A stretch of DNA of 64,000 nt from Dietzia psychralcaliphila (lineage in GTDB: Bacteria; Actinomycetota; Actinomycetes; Mycobacteriales; Mycobacteriaceae), in the NCBI RefSeq assembly GCF_003096095.1, contig NZ_CP015453.1:496001-560000 (forward strand), in the 5' to 3' direction. Both the position numbers and the translations under genes were made by a program. This document shows, one piece after another, positions 18,674-27,586 of the stretch. The notes under the pieces are model-generated. The model was not told the DNA's origin and did no database searches. It was given only the letters and a program-made list of their open reading frames with translations. Numbering within the stretch: position 1 is the stretch's first letter; every line of letters starts with the position of its first letter.

Positions 18674-20737
18674 ATGAGCGCCAGCCATCCGCACCTGACC
18701 AGCCCCCTCGTCGTCGGGCCTCTCACCCTGCGCAACCGCGTGGTCATGGGGTCGATGCACACCGGGCTCGAGGACCGCAGCAAGCACCTCCCCGAGCTCA
18801 CGGCCTACTTCGCCGAGCGGGCGCGCGGGGGCACCGCCATGATGATCACCGGCGGGTTCTCGCCCGACGTCGAGGGCTGGCTGCTGCCCGCCGGGTCGAT
18901 GATGGCCAGCCGGCGGATGGCGGACAAGCACCGCGGTCTCACCGACGCCGTCCACGCGGAGGGCTCGAACATCCTGCTCCAGCTGCTGCACGCCGGCCGG
19001 TACGGGTATCAGCCGTTCGTCCGCTCGGCCTCGTCCACCAAGTCCCCGATCAGCATGTTCAAGGCCCGCGCCCTGAGTTCGCGGGGCGTCGAGCGCACCA
19101 TCGACCACTGGGTCCGGGCCGCCCGACTGGCGAAGCGTGCGGGGTACGACGGCGTCGAGGTCATGGGTTCCGAGGGGTACCTGATCAACCAGTTCCTCGC
19201 GGCCCGCACCAACCAGCGCACCGATGACTGGGGTGGCACCGCGAGCAAGCGCATGCGGTTCCCCGAGGAGATCGTCCGCCGGATCCGCGCCGAGGTGGGC
19301 CCGGACTTCCTCATCCAGTACCGCATCAGCGTGCTCGACCTGGTGCCAGGAGGACAGACCTGGGACGAGACCGCCGAACTCGCGCAGCGGCTCGAGGCGG
19401 CGGGCGTCGACGTGTTCAACACCGGCATCGGCTGGCACGAGGCCCGGATCCCCACCATCGTCACCTCGGTGCCGCGGGCGGCGTTCGTCGACCTGGCGGG
19501 CCGGCTCAAGCAGACCGTCGACGTACCGGTGATCGCCTCCAACCGCATCAACACCCCGGACGTGGCCGAGCAGATCCTCGCCAGCGGGCAGGCCGATCTG
19601 GTGTCGATGGCGCGGCCGCTGCTCGCGGACCCGGCGTTCGCCGCCAAGGTCGCCGAGGGGCGGGCCGACGAGATCAACATCTGCATCGCCTGCAACCAGG
19701 CGTGCCTCGATCACACCTTCGCCAACAAGCGGGCGTCCTGCCTGGTCAATCCCCGCGCCGGTCGGGAGACGGAGCTGCTGCTCACGGTGGCCCCCGCGCG
19801 TCGTCGGGTGGCCGTGGTCGGCGCGGGCCCGGCGGGCCTGGCGTGCGCGGAGGCGGCCGCGTCGCGAGGGCTGGCGGTGGAGGTCTTCGAGGCGGAGGAG
19901 GAGATCGGCGGGCAGTTCCGCTACGCCATGCGCGTGCCGGGCAAGGAGGAGTTCGCCGCGTCGCTGGCCTACTTCAGTCGCCGACTCGACGTGCTCGGAG
20001 TGCCCGTTCACCTGGGTCGACGGGCCGTGGCCGCGGATCTGGCGGGCTTTGACCACGTGGTGGTGGCCACCGGCGTCCGCCCGCGCGAGCTGGATGTTCC
20101 GGGCGCGGACCACCCGATGGTCATGACCTACCCCGAGCTGCTCACCGGCGCCCGCAGGCCCGGCCGTCGCGTCGCCGTGATCGGGGCCGGCGGGATCGGC
20201 GTGGACGTCTCGGAGTTCCTTCTCGCCGGCGGGCCGGGACTGGACCTCGACGGCCGCCGCGCCCACGGGCACTCCACCGACGTAGAGGCCTGGAAGCGAC
20301 ACTGGGGCGTGGCCGATCCGGCCGTCGAACGCGCGGGGCTCGGCACGGCCGTGGTCGACGAGCCCGCGCACGAGGTGCACCTGCTCCAACGCAAGACCAC
20401 CTCGATCGGCAAGGGCCTCGCCAAGACCACCGGATGGGTCCACCGCGCCGAGCTCAAGATGGGCGGAGTGCAGCAGTACACCGGGGTGGCCTACGAGAAG
20501 GTCGACGACGACGGGCTGCACATCCTCACCGCCGAGGGCGAGCGCCGGGTCGTTCCGGTGGACTCGGTCGTGGTGTGCGCGGGCCAGGAGTCGGTGCGCG
20601 TGCTCGCCGATGAGCTGGCCAGTCCGGGAGCCGGAACGGCGAGCCGGGTCCACGTGATCGGTGGTGCCGATGTGGCCGCCGAGCTGGACGCGAAGCGCGC
20701 CATCAAGCAGGGCGTGGAGCTCGCGGCGAGACTCTGA
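18674..20737 (+). CDS. fadH: 2,4-dienoyl-CoA reductase (NADPH), FadH type
   Basis: A 687-residue three-domain flavoprotein that reduces 2,4-dienoyl-CoA during beta-oxidation of unsaturated fatty acids. Residues 1-340 form an old-yellow-enzyme FMN barrel (LTLRNRVVMGSMHTGLED, LLQLLHAGRYG). CIACNQACLDHTF (about 343-355) with a later cysteine supplies the [4Fe-4S] ligands. VAVVGAGPAGLACAEAA (about 384-400) binds FAD, and VAVIGAGGIGVDVSEFL (about 500) NADPH. The ATG at 18674 (MSASHPHL) matches homologues; ATG 18665 is possible. The architecture equals E. coli FadH, but 2-enoate reductase-like roles cannot be excluded. Confidence 0.85.
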   Translation: MSASHPHLTSPLVVGPLTLRNRVVMGSMHTGLEDRSKHLPELTAYFAERARGGTAMMITGGFSPDVEGWLLPAGSMMASRRMADKHRGLTDAVHAEGSNILLQLLHAGRYGYQPFVRSASSTKSPISMFKARALSSRGVERTIDHWVRAARLAKRAGYDGVEVMGSEGYLINQFLAARTNQRTDDWGGTASKRMRFPEEIVRRIRAEVGPDFLIQYRISVLDLVPGGQTWDETAELAQRLEAAGVDVFNTGIGWHEARIPTIVTSVPRAAFVDLAGRLKQTVDVPVIASNRINTPDVAEQILASGQADLVSMARPLLADPAFAAKVAEGRADEINICIACNQACLDHTFANKRASCLVNPRAGRETELLLTVAPARRRVAVVGAGPAGLACAEAAASRGLAVEVFEAEEEIGGQFRYAMRVPGKEEFAASLAYFSRRLDVLGVPVHLGRRAVAADLAGFDHVVVATGVRPRELDVPGADHPMVMTYPELLTGARRPGRRVAVIGAGGIGVDVSEFLLAGGPGLDLDGRRAHGHSTDVEAWKRHWGVADPAVERAGLGTAVVDEPAHEVHLLQRKTTSIGKGLAKTTGWVHRAELKMGGVQQYTGVAYEKVDDDGLHILTAEGERRVVPVDSVVVCAGQESVRVLADELASPGAGTASRVHVIGGADVAAELDAKRAIKQGVELAARL

Positions 20738-20783
20738 GCAACCGCCCCCTCCTCCCCTCCTCCCCTCCTCGCCCACTCCCTCC

Positions 20784-20943
20784 CTCACCTGGCGGACCCT
20801 TCCCACCAGTTGGCGGACCCGGTCCCTCACCTGGCGGACAGAATTCGTGTCCGGCGGGCCGTCCTTCGCATCAGATGTCCGCCGACCGGGGTGGTGTGTC
20901 CGCCAACCACTGCGGGGTCGCGGTGGGGTGTCCGCCAACCGGG
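20784..20943. repeat. 21-bp-phased inverted array, copy 1 (uninterrupted)
   Basis: Three direct units with core GGCGGAC start at 20791, 20812 and 20833, exactly 21 bp apart. They are followed by a 37-bp centre and by inverted cores GTCCGCC at 20877, 20898 (21 bp) and 20930 (32 bp). The units facing the centre carry extended sequences, GGCGGACAGAATTC on the left and TCAGATGTCCGCCGA on the right. The array fills the gap between the convergent fadH and MFS genes. Copy 2 is at 25274-26695. Function unknown. Confidence 0.8.
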
Positions 20944-20983
20944 GGAGGGGTGAGCAGGGGGTTGCGACGAGGGGTTGCGCGGT

Positions 20984-22600
20984 TCAGGCGCAGCGCTTCT
21001 CGCGGCGGCGGTCGACAACACTGAACGCGAGCGCGCCGGCCGCCAACGCCGCGATCAACCCGAGCGCGGCCCGGAACGCGAGCAGCCAGTCGTCCTGGGA
21101 CTCGACTATCCAGAACAGCACGCCGGGGACCACAGCCGTGCCGATCGCGGTGCCCATGCGCTGGCCCAGGGAGATGATGCTGCCTGCCACCCCTCCGTAC
21201 GCGGGGTCGACCGCCCGCAGCGTGAGCGTCTGGTTGGGGGAGATGGTCATGCCCTGGGCGGTGCCCATCAGTGCGGCGGGGGCCATGAAGATCAGGTAGC
21301 CCACCGCCCCGGACTCCACCACGCCCGCGAGCAGGATGAACGCCAGCAGCGCGGTGATGGTGAGGCAAAAGCCCACGATGACCAGCCGCCTCCCGAGCCG
21401 CAGTACGAACCGACCCGCGACCTGGGCGGAGACCGCGGCGCAGATCGAGGCGGGCAGGCTCACCAGCGCGGAGTCGATCGGCGCGTACCCCAGGTGGAAC
21501 TGCAGGTACATGGGCATCACGATCCACAGGCTCGTGCCGCCCATGAAGTAGATCGAGACGATGATCATGCCGTTGCGGAACGCCGGGTCGCGGAAGATCT
21601 CGGGATTGACCAACGGCGGGCGACCGACCCGCTCGTAGCGGCGCTCCCACCACGCAAAGCCACCGAGCAGGGCCACCCCGAGCGGCACCAGAGCCCACAA
21701 CGCGGGGTGGGCTCCGCGGTTGAGGAAGGGCAGCATCACCGAGAGCACGGCCGCCCCCAGCAGCACGATGCCGACCGGGTCCAGGTCGAGGCGACGGCGC
21801 GGTGCCTTCTGCGGCGGCGCCACCGGCGCGGAGGCGTTGGTCGCGGCCGCGGCCCGGGAGGTGGTGACCTCGTCGTCGTCGTCCTCCAGGTAGGCCAACG
21901 CGCCGGCGCGCGCCCTGGATCCGCCGATGTCGCGGCCGTCGTGGTCGGTCCGGGGCAGCGCGCGGTCGTCGGGCAACCACCGCTGACCCAGCACCAGGGC
22001 GAGCACGCCGAGCGGCACGTTGACCAGGAACATCGCGCGCCAGCCCAGGTCGTTGCCGAGCGCCTGGATGAGCAGTCCACCCACCAGCGGGCCCGAGGCG
22101 GTGGCCACCGACACGGTGGTGGCCATGGTGGCGAACGCGCGGGCTCGGGCACCCCCGCGGAAGTACTTCTGGATGAGACCGAAGGTCTGCGGGTTGAGCA
22201 TCCCGGACCCGATGCCCTGGACCACCCGCGCGGCGTTGAGCATCTCGATGTTCTGCGCGAACCCCGCGATCACCGCACCCACGGTGAAGACGGCGACCCC
22301 CGCCAGGAAGAGCCGCTTGCGGCCGGTCGCGTCGCCGAGGCGCCCGGAGGGCACCAACAGCAGACCGAATGACAGCGCGTATCCCGAGACCACCCACTGC
22401 AGTCCACTGGAATCGGCCTCGAGGGCCGGGCCGATCACGGGCAGGGCCACGTTGATCACCGACAACGCGAGGAGCGCCATGAACAGCGGGACCATCAGGG
22501 TGGTGAGGACCCGCGCAGTACTCACCGGCCGCTCCGCCGAGCCCTCCGCCGTACCCGTCTCTGCGCTCTCCACTGCGCTCTGTGCTGCCCCATCGCTCAC
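20984..22600 (-). CDS. MFS drug exporter, DHA2 (EmrB/QacA) family
   Basis: A 538-residue, 14-helix major facilitator protein of the drug:H+ antiporter-2 family. Motif A appears as GRLGDATGRKRLF near residues 85-97; the antiporter motif C region is SGPLVGGLLIQALG near 168-181. A charged loop of about 70 residues (EDDDDEVTTSR) separates the two halves. Substrates in this family are varied lipophilic compounds. The N-terminus is cytoplasmic and Ser/Glu-rich. It is divergent from the SurA-like lipoprotein gene; no regulator is next to it. Confidence 0.85.
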   Translation of the reverse strand: MSDGAAQSAVESAETGTAEGSAERPVSTARVLTTLMVPLFMALLALSVINVALPVIGPALEADSSGLQWVVSGYALSFGLLLVPSGRLGDATGRKRLFLAGVAVFTVGAVIAGFAQNIEMLNAARVVQGIGSGMLNPQTFGLIQKYFRGGARARAFATMATTVSVATASGPLVGGLLIQALGNDLGWRAMFLVNVPLGVLALVLGQRWLPDDRALPRTDHDGRDIGGSRARAGALAYLEDDDDEVTTSRAAAATNASAPVAPPQKAPRRRLDLDPVGIVLLGAAVLSVMLPFLNRGAHPALWALVPLGVALLGGFAWWERRYERVGRPPLVNPEIFRDPAFRNGMIIVSIYFMGGTSLWIVMPMYLQFHLGYAPIDSALVSLPASICAAVSAQVAGRFVLRLGRRLVIVGFCLTITALLAFILLAGVVESGAVGYLIFMAPAALMGTAQGMTISPNQTLTLRAVDPAYGGVAGSIISLGQRMGTAIGTAVVPGVLFWIVESQDDWLLAFRAALGLIAALAAGALAFSVVDRRREKRCA

Positions 22601-22739
22601 CTGGGCGATGGTATCCGTGGCCGATCAGGCGGCGGCCGGTCGTCGCGCGGCGGGCGCCCCCGCGCGCGTGCACAGGTCCCGCCTAACTCCGATGTGTAGC
22701 CTCGGCGGACTGATGCACCCATCAACGTCAGGAGATCGA

Positions 22740-23513
22740 GTGCTGAAGAACAAATGGCGGCTGGTCGCGGCCGCGGCGGGGGCCGTGCTCATCGCGGCGG
22801 GCTGCAGTGCCCCGGGCGACGACGACGGAGCAGCGGAGGGCGAACCGACCGCCGCGACCGAGCAGGCCGACCAGCAGACCGACCCCGAGCAGGACGCCGC
22901 CGGTCCGAACACCGACGACATCCCGGACCCGGTGGCCGAGGTCAACGGCACCGAGATCACCAAGGACGAGTTCGTCACCGTCTTCCAGGGCCAGTACCAG
23001 CAGATGACCATGCAGGCGCAGATGACCGGGCAGCCCGTGGACGAGGACCAGCTCAAGGAGCAGACCCTCGAGGGGCTGGTCGGGAGCGAGCTGCTGCGGC
23101 AGGAGGCCGTGGAGCGCGGACTCGAGGTCTCGGACGCCGAGATCGACACCGCGCTCGCCGGGTTCGCCGAGGCCAACCAGGCCAGCGAGGACGAGTTCAT
23201 CTCCGCCATGGGCGAGCAGGGGATGGACCGCGACGACGTGGTGGAGCAGATCGAGAAGCAGCTCCTCGTGGAGAAGCTGGTCGTCGAGGAGTACGGCGAG
23301 TTCTCCGCGACCGATCAGGAGATCGAGGCCGCCTACCAGCAGTTGGTGGAGCAGCAGGCGATGTCCGGCGGACAGGCGGGCGGCGGACTGCCCCCGCTCG
23401 AGCAGGTCCGCGGGGAGGTCGAGGAGCAGCTGGTCGCCGAGCAGCAGGCGCAGGCCATGCAGACACTCTCCGAGGAGTTGCGCGAGGGCGCGGACGTGAC
23501 CGAGCACCTCTAG
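22740..23513 (+). CDS. SurA_N-domain lipoprotein (PrsA/SurA-like chaperone)
   Basis: A 257-residue lipoprotein: signal peptide with lipobox LIAAGC (cysteine about residue 22), then an acidic, Gln/Glu/Asp-rich linker to residue 60, then a SurA N-terminal chaperone domain (VAEVNGTEITKDEFVTVFQ, then TLEGLVGSELLRQEAVERG). The parvulin-type prolyl isomerase domain that follows in PrsA/SurA is missing, so a membrane-anchored holdase for secreted proteins is inferred. The GTG at 22740 has AGGAG 6-7 nt upstream. Confidence 0.8.
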   Translation: MLKNKWRLVAAAAGAVLIAAGCSAPGDDDGAAEGEPTAATEQADQQTDPEQDAAGPNTDDIPDPVAEVNGTEITKDEFVTVFQGQYQQMTMQAQMTGQPVDEDQLKEQTLEGLVGSELLRQEAVERGLEVSDAEIDTALAGFAEANQASEDEFISAMGEQGMDRDDVVEQIEKQLLVEKLVVEEYGEFSATDQEIEAAYQQLVEQQAMSGGQAGGGLPPLEQVRGEVEEQLVAEQQAQAMQTLSEELREGADVTEHL

Positions 23514-23558
23514 CGGAACCAGGAGTAGGGCGGCGGCGTCCGTGGTGGAATCGGTTCC

Positions 23559-25226
23559 ATGGGCGCACCGGGCGGGATCCTCGCGACTGTCACTGCCGCA
23601 CTCACCGTGGCACTCACCACGGCGGTGACGAGCGTGGTGGTCCTGAGCTCGTCGACGGCCGCCGCGCAACCGGCGGCTGGGCAGCCCGCGCAACCAGCGG
23701 CTGGGCAGCCCGCGCCCCCGCCGGCCTCCCCGCCCGGACTCGGCCCCGCCGGCACCTCCACGGTCCACGGGGACGCGGCCTCCACCGACACGCTGCCCGG
23801 TCGCGGGCCGGGCGCGAACCCCGCGATCGTCGGCGCCCTGACCGGGGCCACCTGCTCCACCGTGTTCGTGGGCACCACCGGCATGCCCGTCGCCCTGTGC
23901 ACCTCCTACGTGGGACTCCACCCGCCCACCCCGCTCGCGCCGACGGTCAAGCTCTTCCACCCCGACACCGCTGCGGTGCTGGCGGAGGTGCAGCTGGCCA
24001 AGGGTGCGCTCCTGGGTGGGGTGTACGGATACCTCGACGAGCGTGACCGGGTGGTGGTGGCCGACGGCAACCGCAGGCTCCTCGCCGTGGGGCACCACCG
24101 CGACCCGGACGGCTCCTGGCGGATGACGGTCGATGTCCTGGCCGACCTGTCCGCGGGCGTCCCCGACGGCGACGCCGTGACCGGCCTGATCCCGGCTTTC
24201 GACGGGCGGGTCTGGTTCGCGACCTCCGGTGGGGTGGTGGGGACCGTGCTACCGGGCGACGACGACACTCTGCGCACCCTCGCCCTGCCCGCAGGGGAGC
24301 GGATCTCCAACGGGCTGACGGTCCGCCCCGGTGGTGCATCGGTGATCACCACCCGGGCCCTCTACGAGGTGGACGTGGCGCCGGACGGGACCCCGGAGGT
24401 GCGCTGGCGGCACGCCTACGAGGTGGGCCCGGCGCGCAAACCCGGTCTGTTGGCGCACGGCTCGGGAACCACGCCCACCTACTTCGGCCCGGACGACTCG
24501 TTGGTGGCGATCACCGACGACGCCGAGCAGCCTGATCTGATCGTCCTGCGCCGTATCGACGGCTCGCAGGTGTGCCGGATGCCGGCGTTCGCGACCTCGC
24601 TCGCACCGGCCTCCGCCGCGCCGGACGGGGTCCTGATCGAGGGTCCCGCGGCCACGGAGAACTCGATCATCGCGTTCGGGGACGCGCTGGTGCTGGTCAA
24701 CACCTACGGGTACGAGTATCCGCCGTTCGCAGTCGACGGCCCGGCCGTGCCCGCCTCCGCCCCGTACACCGGAGGGATGACCCGAATCGACGTGAGCCCG
24801 GACGGCACGGCGCGCGTGGACGGCACGGTGAACCCGGATGGCACCGCGAACCCGGATGGCACGGCGAACCCGGGCAGCGCATGCTCGCGAGTGTGGACCT
24901 CGCTCGCCCGTACCGCGTCGTTGCCCAAGCTCACGACCGGAGACGGCCTGATCCATGCCCTGGCGTACGGCCCGTCGGGGGTGCAGCGAGGGCTTGGCCC
25001 GGAGCTCGGACCTCTGCTCGATCAGGGGCTGGCGCAGAAGTTCGGCCCGGTGGACGTGACCTCGACGGATGTCGAGACCGGCCGCGAGGTCGTCCGCGAC
25101 TTCGTGGGCGTGGCGCCGCTGGACGAGCCCATGGAACTCACCGGGACCATCGTCTCCCGCGGCGACGGCCCGGGTGTGATGTGGCAACCCACGCTCACGC
25201 GCATGCTCCGGGTAGGGCCCGCGTAG
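23559..25226 (+). CDS. Secreted propeller-like protein of unknown function
   Basis: A 555-residue protein with an N-terminal hydrophobic signal or anchor (about residues 8-32) and a Pro/Ala/Gln-rich linker with two AAGQPAQP-type repeats. A long, beta-rich region follows, with repeated GxVYGYLDERDRVVVADGNRR-like blades, suggesting a beta-propeller. A short tandem PDGTAN repeat near residues 420-440 is a likely slippage product. No enzyme motif is visible. Located 45 bp after the SurA-like lipoprotein gene, so probably in the same transcript. Homologues in mycolata are only hypothetical to my knowledge. Confidence 0.7.
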   Translation: MGAPGGILATVTAALTVALTTAVTSVVVLSSSTAAAQPAAGQPAQPAAGQPAPPPASPPGLGPAGTSTVHGDAASTDTLPGRGPGANPAIVGALTGATCSTVFVGTTGMPVALCTSYVGLHPPTPLAPTVKLFHPDTAAVLAEVQLAKGALLGGVYGYLDERDRVVVADGNRRLLAVGHHRDPDGSWRMTVDVLADLSAGVPDGDAVTGLIPAFDGRVWFATSGGVVGTVLPGDDDTLRTLALPAGERISNGLTVRPGGASVITTRALYEVDVAPDGTPEVRWRHAYEVGPARKPGLLAHGSGTTPTYFGPDDSLVAITDDAEQPDLIVLRRIDGSQVCRMPAFATSLAPASAAPDGVLIEGPAATENSIIAFGDALVLVNTYGYEYPPFAVDGPAVPASAPYTGGMTRIDVSPDGTARVDGTVNPDGTANPDGTANPGSACSRVWTSLARTASLPKLTTGDGLIHALAYGPSGVQRGLGPELGPLLDQGLAQKFGPVDVTSTDVETGREVVRDFVGVAPLDEPMELTGTIVSRGDGPGVMWQPTLTRMLRVGPA

Positions 25227-25273
25227 CGACGGCGCCTGCGGCGCCCAACCCTTCCCAGCCTCGCCCCTCCGAG

Positions 25274-25357
25274 CCCGGTTGGCGGACGCCCCGCCCCAGT
25301 TGGCGGCCGCCCCACCCCGGTTGGCGGACGCCCCGCCTCGGTTGGCGGACAGAATTC
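25274..25357. repeat. 21-bp-phased inverted array, copy 2, left half
   Basis: Four units with core GGCGGAC (GGCGGCC in the second) start at 25281, 25302, 25323 and 25344, all exactly 21 bp apart. The last one runs into GGCGGACAGAATTC as in copy 1. The IS30-family element separates it from the right half at 26654-26695. Confidence 0.8.
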
Positions 25358-25373
25358 GCGAGGAATCGGGCCC

Positions 25374-26637
25374 GAAGTCAAGTGGTCGAAGCAATCGTGG
25401 GTTAGGTGGCTGCGGTGAGTAGCAGCTCGTTGAGTTTGTCCGCGGGGGTGGCCAGATTGAGGGTCGGCCTGGGTCGTGAGTTTAGGGTGCCCGCGACTTT
25501 GGCGAGGTCCTCAGCGGAGTGGGTAGATAGGTCACTTCCCTTCTTGAACCAGTGCCGCAACAACCTGTTGGTGTTCTCGTTAGTGCCCCGTTGCCAAGGC
25601 GAGTGTGGGTCGCAGAAGTACAGGTCCGCGTCCAGGGCGAGCTGAATCTCGGCGTACTTGGCCAGTTCGCGGCCGCGGTCCCAGGTGATCGACCTGCGCA
25701 AATGCTCTGGCAACTTACGCATTTCGCGGATCATCGCCTCCGCTACTGCCGCAGAATTGTGACCGTCAGGTAAGTGAAGCAAAATCGTGAACCGACTGGT
25801 GCGCTCAACGAGTGTGCCGATCGCCGAGTTCGAGGCCGTGCCTCCCATGATGAGGTCTCCTTCCCAGTGCCCCGGGACGGCGCGGTCATCAACCTCAGCT
25901 GGTCGCTCACTGATCTTGAACGCCTCCTTGTAGGGCGAGGGGTCCCGGCGACCGCGGGCGCGAGTCTGACGCCGACTTCGCCCCAAGCTCAGGCATCGAT
26001 GCAGGTCAGCACGCAGAGAGCCTCGGGTTTGCACGTACAGGTTCTGGTAGATCGTCTCGTGGCTCACCGTGACAGTGTCGCTGTCCCGGGCAAGGACATC
26101 ACTGATCAGCTTCGGCGACCAGCCATCGTCCATCCATGCCTCGATCTGACGACACAGGCCAGGGTGCAATGACAGTTTCATCGGCTTGGGCCGGGACCGC
26201 CGTCTGGCTGCGGCCCGATGAGCGATAGCCGCCCGATAAGCACCGTCAGGGCTGATGTTCCGCCTGACCTCCCGCCAGACGGTCGTCTTGTCTCGTCCGA
26301 TGTCCTCACCGATCTCCTGCGCAGACGCCCCCTGCTTAACCCCGGCAGCGATCCCCACCCGGTCATCGATGGACAGCGGGCGACGGGTGCGCCCCTCCTC
26401 GGGAAGATCGGCCGGCCATGGGCCAATGCCACGAGTGCCAACACGCAGGGTGAGCTCCATGTGTCCACACTCGCCCCACCACTGCCACGCACCGCTCTTC
26501 GACACGCCAGCTCTCGCCGCGGCGGACCGAATCGTCTCTCCCTCGCACATGTATCGAACGAATACCTCACGCAGTTCCCGTGGCAACAACTTCGGCATAG
26601 CAACGCTCCTTCAGCGTTGCTTCGACTGTATGACTTC
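25374..26637 (-). mobile_element. IS30-family insertion sequence
   Basis: About 1264 bp bounded by imperfect inverted repeats beginning GAAGTCA and continuing, after four mismatched bases, with GTCGAAGCAA (17 of 21 positions identical). It encodes one intact transposase. A small hairpin (CAACGCT/AGCGTTG, 26601-26619) lies just before the transposase start and may limit its translation. The exact ends and target duplication are uncertain because the flanks are GC-rich (GGGCCC on the left, ACCGGGC on the right). It interrupts the centre of a 21-bp-phased array. Confidence 0.85.
25402..26598 (-). CDS. IS30-family transposase
   Basis: A 398-residue DDE transposase. The N-terminal part contains helix-turn-helix segments (RSAAARAGVSKSGAW near residues 23-37, EIGEDIGRDKTTVWREVRRN near 95-114). 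The catalytic domain shows GHWEGDLIMG (first Asp, near 244-253), TWDRGREL (second Asp, near 310) and DPHSPWQRGTNENTNRLLR (Glu, near 333-351). It has full length and no frameshift, so the element may still be mobile. The ATG at 26598 is followed by a normal reading frame. Confidence 0.93.
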   Translation of the reverse strand: MPKLLPRELREVFVRYMCEGETIRSAAARAGVSKSGAWQWWGECGHMELTLRVGTRGIGPWPADLPEEGRTRRPLSIDDRVGIAAGVKQGASAQEIGEDIGRDKTTVWREVRRNISPDGAYRAAIAHRAAARRRSRPKPMKLSLHPGLCRQIEAWMDDGWSPKLISDVLARDSDTVTVSHETIYQNLYVQTRGSLRADLHRCLSLGRSRRQTRARGRRDPSPYKEAFKISERPAEVDDRAVPGHWEGDLIMGGTASNSAIGTLVERTSRFTILLHLPDGHNSAAVAEAMIREMRKLPEHLRRSITWDRGRELAKYAEIQLALDADLYFCDPHSPWQRGTNENTNRLLRHWFKKGSDLSTHSAEDLAKVAGTLNSRPRPTLNLATPADKLNELLLTAAT

Positions 26638-26653
26638 ACCGGGCTCGGAGCGC

Positions 26654-26695
26654 GTCAGATGTCCGCCGAGTCGATCACGATGTCCGCCAACCGGA
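26654..26695. repeat. 21-bp-phased inverted array, copy 2, right half
   Basis: Two inverted cores GTCCGCC at 26661 and 26682, 21 bp apart, the first preceded by TCAGAT exactly as in copy 1. The array ends before the convergent universal stress protein gene. Confidence 0.75.
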
Positions 26696-26731
26696 GGGGG
26701 GGAGGTGGAGCGGTCGTCGGGTGGCCGGGCT

Positions 26732-27586
26732 CTAGTCGGTTGGGCGGACCACGGCGACAGCGCACGGCGCAGTCTGGAGCAGACGCCGACTGACCGACCC
26801 GAGCAACAGACCGGCGAACCCGCCTTGCCCGCGCGATCCGGTCACCAGGAGTGCGGCCCCCGATGCTTCGGTGGCGATCGTGGTGGCGGGTTCGCCCACC
26901 ACGAGGACCAGGTCGACGATCACGCCGGGGTGGCGGGCCTCGTGAGGGGCGAGGGCGTCGATGACCGCCTTCTCGTCCTCGGCGAGCACGCTCTCAGCGA
27001 GCTGGTCCAGGTCGAACAGCGAGGCGCCCGGCAGTCTGGGGACCTCGACGGTGTGGATCACCCGCAGGGTGGCGCCACGTCGCTCGGCCTCGGCAAAGGC
27101 GAACGCGGCGGCGGGATCGCCGGCCGCGGATCCGTCGGCGGCCAGCACCACCGGGCCGCTGCTGGGGCCTTCGGGCGTGAGCGGGGTGATCACGATGACG
27201 GGGCAGGTCGCGTGTTCGACCACGCCGGCGGAGGTCGATCCCATGGCGAAGTCCTCGCGGGCGGTGAGCCCGCGGCTGCCCACGATGATCGCCGAGGCGT
27301 ACCGGGTGGCGGCGACGAGCGCGCCGACGGGACTGTCGGCGACCACGCGGTAGGTCGCCGGGACATCACCGGCCAGGTCGGTGAGCTGGTCACGCATGGC
27401 CCCCTCGACGTTGGCCCGCGCGGTCTCGTCAAAGGCCACCACGCGGCCGACGGCGCGGTCGGCGGAGATCACCTCGAGGCTCGTGTGGTGGTCGCGCGCC
27501 CAGGTGGCGGCCCAGGCCACGGCCCGGCGGGCGTCCCGCGAGCCGTCATAACCACACACGACCGGTCCGATGGCGGTCTCCGTCAT
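26732..27586 (-). CDS. Universal stress protein, tandem UspA domains
   Basis: A 284-residue cytoplasmic protein with two UspA folds. Each ends in the ATP-binding pattern G-x2-G-x9-G(S/T): GSRGLTAREDFAMGST near residues 102-117 and GSRGQGGFAGLLLGSVS near 251-267. DGS-type nucleotide residues open both halves. In mycobacteria such tandem proteins respond to hypoxia or nitric oxide and bind ATP. It is monocistronic here, with furA on the other side of its start. Confidence 0.88.
   Translation of the reverse strand: MTETAIGPVVCGYDGSRDARRAVAWAATWARDHHTSLEVISADRAVGRVVAFDETARANVEGAMRDQLTDLAGDVPATYRVVADSPVGALVAATRYASAIIVGSRGLTAREDFAMGSTSAGVVEHATCPVIVITPLTPEGPSSGPVVLAADGSAAGDPAAAFAFAEAERRGATLRVIHTVEVPRLPGASLFDLDQLAESVLAEDEKAVIDALAPHEARHPGVIVDLVLVVGEPATTIATEASGAALLVTGSRGQGGFAGLLLGSVSRRLLQTAPCAVAVVRPTD

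Follow-up and report, generated by a model that had tools for sequence, protein, structure and literature searches.

Two inverted repeat arrays lie in a 64,000-bp stretch of the Dietzia psychralcaliphila genome (bases 496001–560000 of the main contig C1, 3.88 Mb, of the 3.9-Mb source genome G000; hereafter the window, in which a position equals the C1 position minus 496000). Judging from the DNA pattern alone, these arrays and their relatives are probably a dispersed, genus-specific DNA element of two-fold symmetry that is bound by a putative sequence-specific protein. The core, 36 or 37 bp long and dyad-symmetric, is flanked by two arms in which inward-facing units TTG-NNN-GACA recur every 21 bp, i.e., two helical turns. 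A sequence-only reading of the window had described the two arrays, which stand, and had proposed that protein binds along one helical face, which is the best available reading; what it had overlooked was an IS30-family insertion within the second copy, the conservation of the core, and a unit triplet typical of the species.

The pattern GGCGGAC-N14-GGCGGAC occurred 20 times in the source genome and the reversed control pattern not once, placing the repeat beyond chance, even though two of the 20 matches (at 1075 and 2945 kb) lack a dyad and seem to be chance sites. Further arrays were collected with two profile models, a first sequence-only profile built from 21 arrays and a second built from 41; both embed the array geometry, and their E-values are rough. 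In a held-out test, 31 arrays absent from the search model and taken from second-model matches were scanned for gaps of 30–43 bp and steps of 17–25 bp, with ties resolved towards 21. The core measured 37 bp in 28 arrays and 36 bp in three, and the outer step was 21 bp in 62 of 62 cases. An earlier scan of 55 rows, which included several single-unit hairpins and favoured 36–37, gave a core of 36/37 bp in 52; two of the other rows were mis-registered and one had 38 bp (G020_L152), and one more mis-registered row stood among the 52. The mis-registered rows (G000_749k, G002_34k, and G001_L125) were excluded from the filler, unit, and fold tests.

Scanning 85 arrays without a spacing prior gave exactly 21 bp in 168 of 205 steps, and 205 inward vs 16 outward units, chance alone predicting about 19 in either orientation. 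Among the steps above 25 bp, lengths leaned to whole helical turns (n = 24, R 0.51, p about 0.002, in a set that includes chance matches; for the 17 steps of 26–90 bp, R was 0.71 at 10.5 and 0.74 at 10.75). Two units per arm are usual, as 52 of the 85 arrays were 2+2 in a 21-bp walk. Within the core, GCG occupied positions 8–10 of both halves (34–36 of 42 half-cores), and GGGCC was often central. The earlier expectation that further copies would keep the phase is thus borne out, also between orthologous arrays.

For 20 pairs of arrays with both flanks orthologous, which are mutually non-independent, 387 of 1,050 filler and core sites differed (37%), and segment length had changed in 10 of 60 segments, always by 1 bp. 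The distances from array to flanking stop codon differed by 10–104 bp in 24 of 31 comparisons, by 0–3 bp in four and by more in three, these last three tracing to gene calling or inserted genes. Because filler and core sequences diverge while segment lengths mostly stay and flanking distances vary, the comparison indicates that the spacing within arrays is under constraint. The number of units varied between orthologous arrays.

The variable triplet of the unit tends to be typical of the genome, a pattern that holds whether the arrays at shared junctions are of common descent or arrived independently. GCG was found in 39 of 40 units in G000 (its two IS-split arrays excluded), 29 of 30 in G002, 10 of 11 in G004, 8 of 9 in G013, 14 of 15 in G016, and 27 of 27 in G020, whereas CAA or CAC was present in 87 of 103 units in G015, 22 of 28 in G009, and 3 of 4 in both G010 and G019. 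For these counts, G000_749k and G002_34k were re-entered by hand and G001_L125 was excluded. The same gene junctions can carry GCG in one species and CAA, CAC, or CCG types in another; junctions common to both triplet types are 428k, topA/578k, 747k, 749k, and G016_192k (both flanks) and 3496k (one flank). It is this genome-typical triplet, our main argument, that points to a putative trans-acting recogniser.

At E ≤ 1e-4, the second model matched 12 of 23 Dietzia genomes and none of the other 11, so that the arrays extend to further species of the genus but, at this threshold, not to all of them. The same model gave no match in 278 genomes of 30 other genera of the same family (301 family genomes in total, with stricter filters outside the genus). 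By these profile searches, the array family was found only in the genus Dietzia at E ≤ 1e-4. Taking half of the two-strand matches, the number of arrays per genome ranged from 1 (G010 and G019) to about 25 (G015). One scan of viral sequences returned no stretches and another two, in neither of which the model found an array; BLAST of array 1 against plasmid and phage sequences found none. One search yielded 13 stretches, six of them from Dietzia. For the seven others the model score did not go above 21 bits; one of them (L050) had 16 bits and a match over nearly its whole length, and no dyad array was seen in the four that were viewed (L045, L052, L055, and L050). A literature search turned up nothing on this element, subscription papers being largely outside its reach.

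Some related patterns were met along the way. In G007 the reversed control pattern matched six times on one strand, possibly representing another 21-bp repeat. In another genus (G034:C14:58517-58607), four overlapping matches followed each other in 21-bp steps with identical filler, forming a GGCGGAC tandem repeat that is perhaps coding. Single-unit dyads or hairpins with the unit word of the arrays were present at L068:1548-1598 and in L154 (genome 1166, 3070 kb), and may be minimal or decayed forms.

Several observations weigh against a protein-bound, genus-specific element. Since the geometry is built into the search models, deformed arrays would escape them. Relaxing the threshold to E ≤ 0.05 gave first-model matches in 22 of the 23 genus genomes, and seven of 40 hits fetched with it lay inside called open reading frames (ORFs), weak hits including chance. 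The triplet is mixed in G001 (CAA, CCG, CAC, and CCT), and G008 has both GCG and CAA. At junctions common to both triplet types, core identity exceeded the 95% background level at 749k only (0.67), plus one of two comparisons at G016_192k (0.64), and some arrays at shared junctions may, by their sequences, be independent arrivals. The arrays also fold, with a mean z of -5.9 vs mononucleotide shuffles (41 arrays), an ability that stems from the shared consensus, and they may have a role as single-strand hairpins. Units at the same level across the two arms were more alike than crossed ones in 18 arrays to 4, with 19 ties; outer units matched across the dyad beyond shuffles (3/4000), inner units marginally (186/4000). 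Similarity between units of the same arm was equally strong (1/4000 and 0/4000 vs shuffles), so tandem duplication may explain part of the likeness across the dyad.

The location of the arrays was compared with that of other intergenic regions. Fifty of the 85 arrays lay between convergent genes, 21 between tandem and three between divergent ones; two were called inside an ORF, and nine stood at contig or locus edges. The convergent context described for the window therefore holds for 50 of the 74 arrays with both neighbours called, while a purely convergent placement was too strong a claim; copies inside genes, on which the earlier proposal would have foundered, were confined to the two mentioned. 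In 17 of the 21 tandem cases the array was closer to the upstream gene's 3′ end. The 212 intergenic regions of 80 bp or more that served as background were 56 convergent, 101 tandem, and 55 divergent, giving Fisher p-values of 6e-10 for the convergent and 2e-5 for the divergent class; these are optimistic, as genes were called with a simple GC3 method, orthologous arrays were counted separately, and the background came from the window and 21 fetched stretches.

Arrays are not present at every orthologous junction. At the orthologous 517k, 521k, and topA junctions G004 has short array-free spacers, and its close relative G002 carries arrays at 517k and topA; the counterparts of the 165k and 428k junctions lay outside the G004 stretches retrieved. 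In G019 the 747/749k junction has neither an array nor an AbiEi-type gene. Since these orthologous junctions in G004 and G019 are without arrays, the arrays are dispensable at those places. All eight multi-unit arrays of the source genome lie within 0.75 Mb of base 1 of the 3.88-Mb contig, at whose start we recognised by eye what we take to be dnaA and dnaN, and the two array-dense stretches of G015 that were placed map to 553–570 and 732–749 kb. This origin-side clustering is suggestive and was chosen after the fact.

Among the alternatives, the one that survives best, although we consider it rather unlikely, is a selfish REP-like mobile element (REP, repetitive extragenic palindromic), in which a transposase or recombinase reading core and arm units copies the arrays to 3′ intergenic sites without any role for the host. 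It overlaps with the preferred reading, because the binding protein would then be the mobilising enzyme. The dispersed, variable copy number and the lack of matches in 11 genomes would suit such an element, as would a site preference and a use as insertion-sequence target like those of REPs, and the finding that an AbiEi_1 gene is flanked by arrays in seven genomes (G000, G002, G004, G015, G020, G016 with the gene interrupted, and G008 seen in part). However, no target duplication of an array and no clean insertion boundary were seen at the array-free junctions viewed. Moreover, G004 has two arrays only, both flanking the AbiEi_1 gene, and this pair is explained by recent recombination. The gene was also not found in the 40 kb (G010) or 20 kb (G019) beside single arrays, and it is broken in the array-bearing G016.

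The AbiEi_1 gene of the source genome (L012:1700-2659; genome 747.4–748.4 kb) encodes 319 aa, has weak restriction-nuclease-like (MTES_1575/DUF559) matches besides the AbiEi_1 match, and is flanked by a complete array on each side. Its G016 counterpart is in two pieces, separated by an ORF that has a match to Mutator-family transposase (L065:2-730). The G004 tract at about 735–738 kb of its contig C1 is ~99% identical to G002, compared with 91–96% at two other loci, and probably reflects recent recombination. A search for the AbiEi_1 junction in G017 and G011 (620–780 kb each) did not find it. The AbiEi/nuclease-like gene was considered as the cognate factor of the arrays and is kept as a lead only, as the G004 case reduces to the 99% tract and G016 has kept its arrays with a broken gene. 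In G008, four other genes (an MFS/sugar transporter, an epimerase, a short-chain dehydrogenase, and an IclR regulator; L063:543-4562) lie between two arrays, with the same neighbour gene adjoining.

Less probable still is a bidirectional transcription terminator or an RNA-protecting hairpin at the 3′ ends of genes, the former having been a candidate role in the sequence-only reading. The convergent or 3′-end location and the GC-rich inverted arms, which fold well, would agree with it, and among the weak hits of the model are single-unit hairpins, perfect or nearly so, that lie between convergent genes (L153 and L128). However, only 2 of 84 arrays contain a U-tailed hairpin, and nine have a separate one no more than 300 bp away; one example is the locus common to G015, G010, and G019, where a classic hairpin with a T-rich tail precedes the array. 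Selection for a hairpin would be expected to make the left and right sides of an array match each other more closely than they match sides taken from other arrays. Filler complementarity within arrays was 0.411 vs 0.416 in shuffles (41 arrays), and half-core complementarity was 0.444 vs 0.461 (52 arrays). Natural arrays had a fold energy of -57.1 kcal/mol and chimeras of -57.4 kcal/mol (-56.1 vs -56.2 on the other strand). In fillers, core, and predicted fold energy, the halves of an array thus show no mutual adaptation to pairing, whereas the units gave a mixed signal, weakly positive for the outer ones. Five of 16 predicted pairs showed some double change, with a covariation term of -0.52. 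Rfam covariance models gave no match at E ≤ 1 in window positions 20600–26900, and some convergent junctions in G004 and G019 do without arrays. These sequence comparisons favour a DNA site bound by protein over a terminator.

A neutral tandem-repeat relic, in which slippage multiplied the units and both period and symmetry were inherited without selection, is very improbable. Exact 21-bp duplicates at 748.6 kb, the varying unit number among orthologues and the likeness of same-arm units would be in line with it, but the spacing was kept despite the 37% of differing filler and core sites, the core is symmetric, and the unit triplet changed across dispersed loci. The remnant of a heptad-coding sequence (seven codons, 21 = 3 × 7) that had been named as the alternative can practically be discarded for Dietzia, despite an identical 11-mer in 21-bp direct repeats outside the genus (L050), as the units are inverted across a core that at 37 bp is no multiple of 3 and lie between called genes in all but the two arrays noted. 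The L050 repeat, from a Chthoniobacteraceae metagenome-assembled genome (L050:6430-6860), runs in one direction only, as a long tandem whose 21-bp unit contains GGTTGGCGGAC; its leucine-rich heptad frame is open, and it has no dyad.

Array 1 spans window positions 20787–20940. Its left arm (20787–20839, plus strand) has three inward units, with GGCGGAC at 20791, 20812, and 20833. The 37-bp dyad core (20840–20876, no strand) has GGGCC at its centre, and all of its 37 letters are identical in the orthologous G002 array. The right arm (20877–20940, minus strand) has units at 20877 and 20898, 21 bp apart, and a third at 20930. The array had been described as 3 + 3 units with exact 21-bp phasing; the six units are there, but the outermost one of the right arm lies 32 bp further out, which is about three turns.

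Array 2, with a total span of 25277–26692, is a single array split at its centre by an IS30-family element, and the 4 + 2 units reported for it were confirmed. The left arm (25277–25350, plus strand) has units in 21-bp steps at 25281, 25302, 25323, and 25344, the second of which reads GGCGGCC instead of GGCGGAC. It is followed by the left half-core (25351–25371, no strand), which ends in GGGC, the first of the two target-duplication copies. The insertion sequence (IS) itself occupies 25372–26640 on the minus strand (1,269 bp; transposase ORF 25402–26598, 398 aa). The right half-core (26641–26660, no strand) starts with the second copy of GGGC, and the right arm (26661–26692, minus strand) has two units 21 bp apart, at 26661 and 26682.

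The transposase, with HTH_38 and rve (DDE) domains, places the element in the IS30 family; its terminal inverted repeats, compared by eye, are imperfect. The source genome holds two full copies and one truncated copy. All three start exactly 20 bp after GGCGGAC in the orientation of the transposase, the truncated copy retaining that side only, and both full copies have an apparent 4-bp target duplication. After removal of the IS and one duplication copy, the core was 37 bp in both split arrays, and in G020 the 578k insertion site is present without the IS. The arrays are probably a preferred target of this element, which would insert at the array axis. Other IS30 relatives in the genus were not seen at arrays, because none of the 18 loci scanned, out of 27 others with weaker IS30-like matches, had an array match better than E 0.03. 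A nearly palindromic target has likewise been described for an IS30-family element at the IS30 hot spots (PMC9333248); the Dietzia target differs in being a genus-specific repeat family with arms. The apparent duplication is 4 bp, compared with 2 bp reported for IS30, from which other family members may differ in this length.

The nearest analogue of the arrays, by comparison of location and of use as IS targets, appears to be REP and the bacterial interspersed mosaic element (BIME), to which we do not assign them. Like these, the arrays are dispersed, non-coding, mostly at convergent or downstream sites, and targeted by an IS. REPs are palindromes of 20–40 bp; they are reported to number usually more than 100 per genome (PMC2817692) and to bind gyrase, IHF, and DNA polymerase I (PMC1525189, PMC3733652). 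By contrast, there are 1 to about 25 arrays per genome, the array unit is not palindromic, and each array consists of phased direct units on two opposed arms with a core of fixed length. No GTAG/CGTC tag was noticed by eye in the array consensus, on which no scan was run.

The arrays also recall the lambda-type phage attachment site attP, where inverted core sites and direct-repeat arm sites serve one bivalent protein. They similarly pair an inverted core with direct-repeat arm units, but they occur in many copies with symmetric arms, and no integrase was seen beside the arrays of the window. In Neisseria, paired uptake sequences, in which a genus-specific word stands in inverted orientation between convergent genes, act as terminators. 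The Dietzia arrays share the inverted genus-specific word and the convergent position; however, they are far fewer and phased, and 82 of 84 have no U-tailed hairpin.

If the arrays are indeed sites of a sequence-specific protein, a dimer of this putative protein would sit on the dyad core, further protomers would occupy the arms in a row on a single face of the helix, and a compact nucleoprotein complex would form just behind gene ends. Topology or insulation and selfish spread are the leading options for the role of this complex. The element might act in the 3′ space like REP/BIME, influencing topology or forming a barrier where transcription units converge, and it may be dispensable, with the IS30-family element preferring it as a target. 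More tentatively, and with a good deal of doubt, the arrays might be the binding platform of an undescribed DNA-binding protein, possibly of a recombinase-like core-plus-arm type, whose three-base specificity shifted from one species to another while the scattered sites followed jointly (GCG to CAA/CAC) and the geometry stayed fixed to the base pair; they would then be a record of protein-site co-evolution, perhaps tied to the origin-side region.

Should a protein read these sites, Dietzia would offer a rare multi-site DNA system in which the recognition word has changed between related species at shared places, with strict helical phasing, so that both the change in specificity and the function could be tested by swapping arrays and lysates. 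The arrays would then add to the REP/BIME elements a phased counterpart from an actinobacterial genus, and would provide a defined landing site of the IS30 type.

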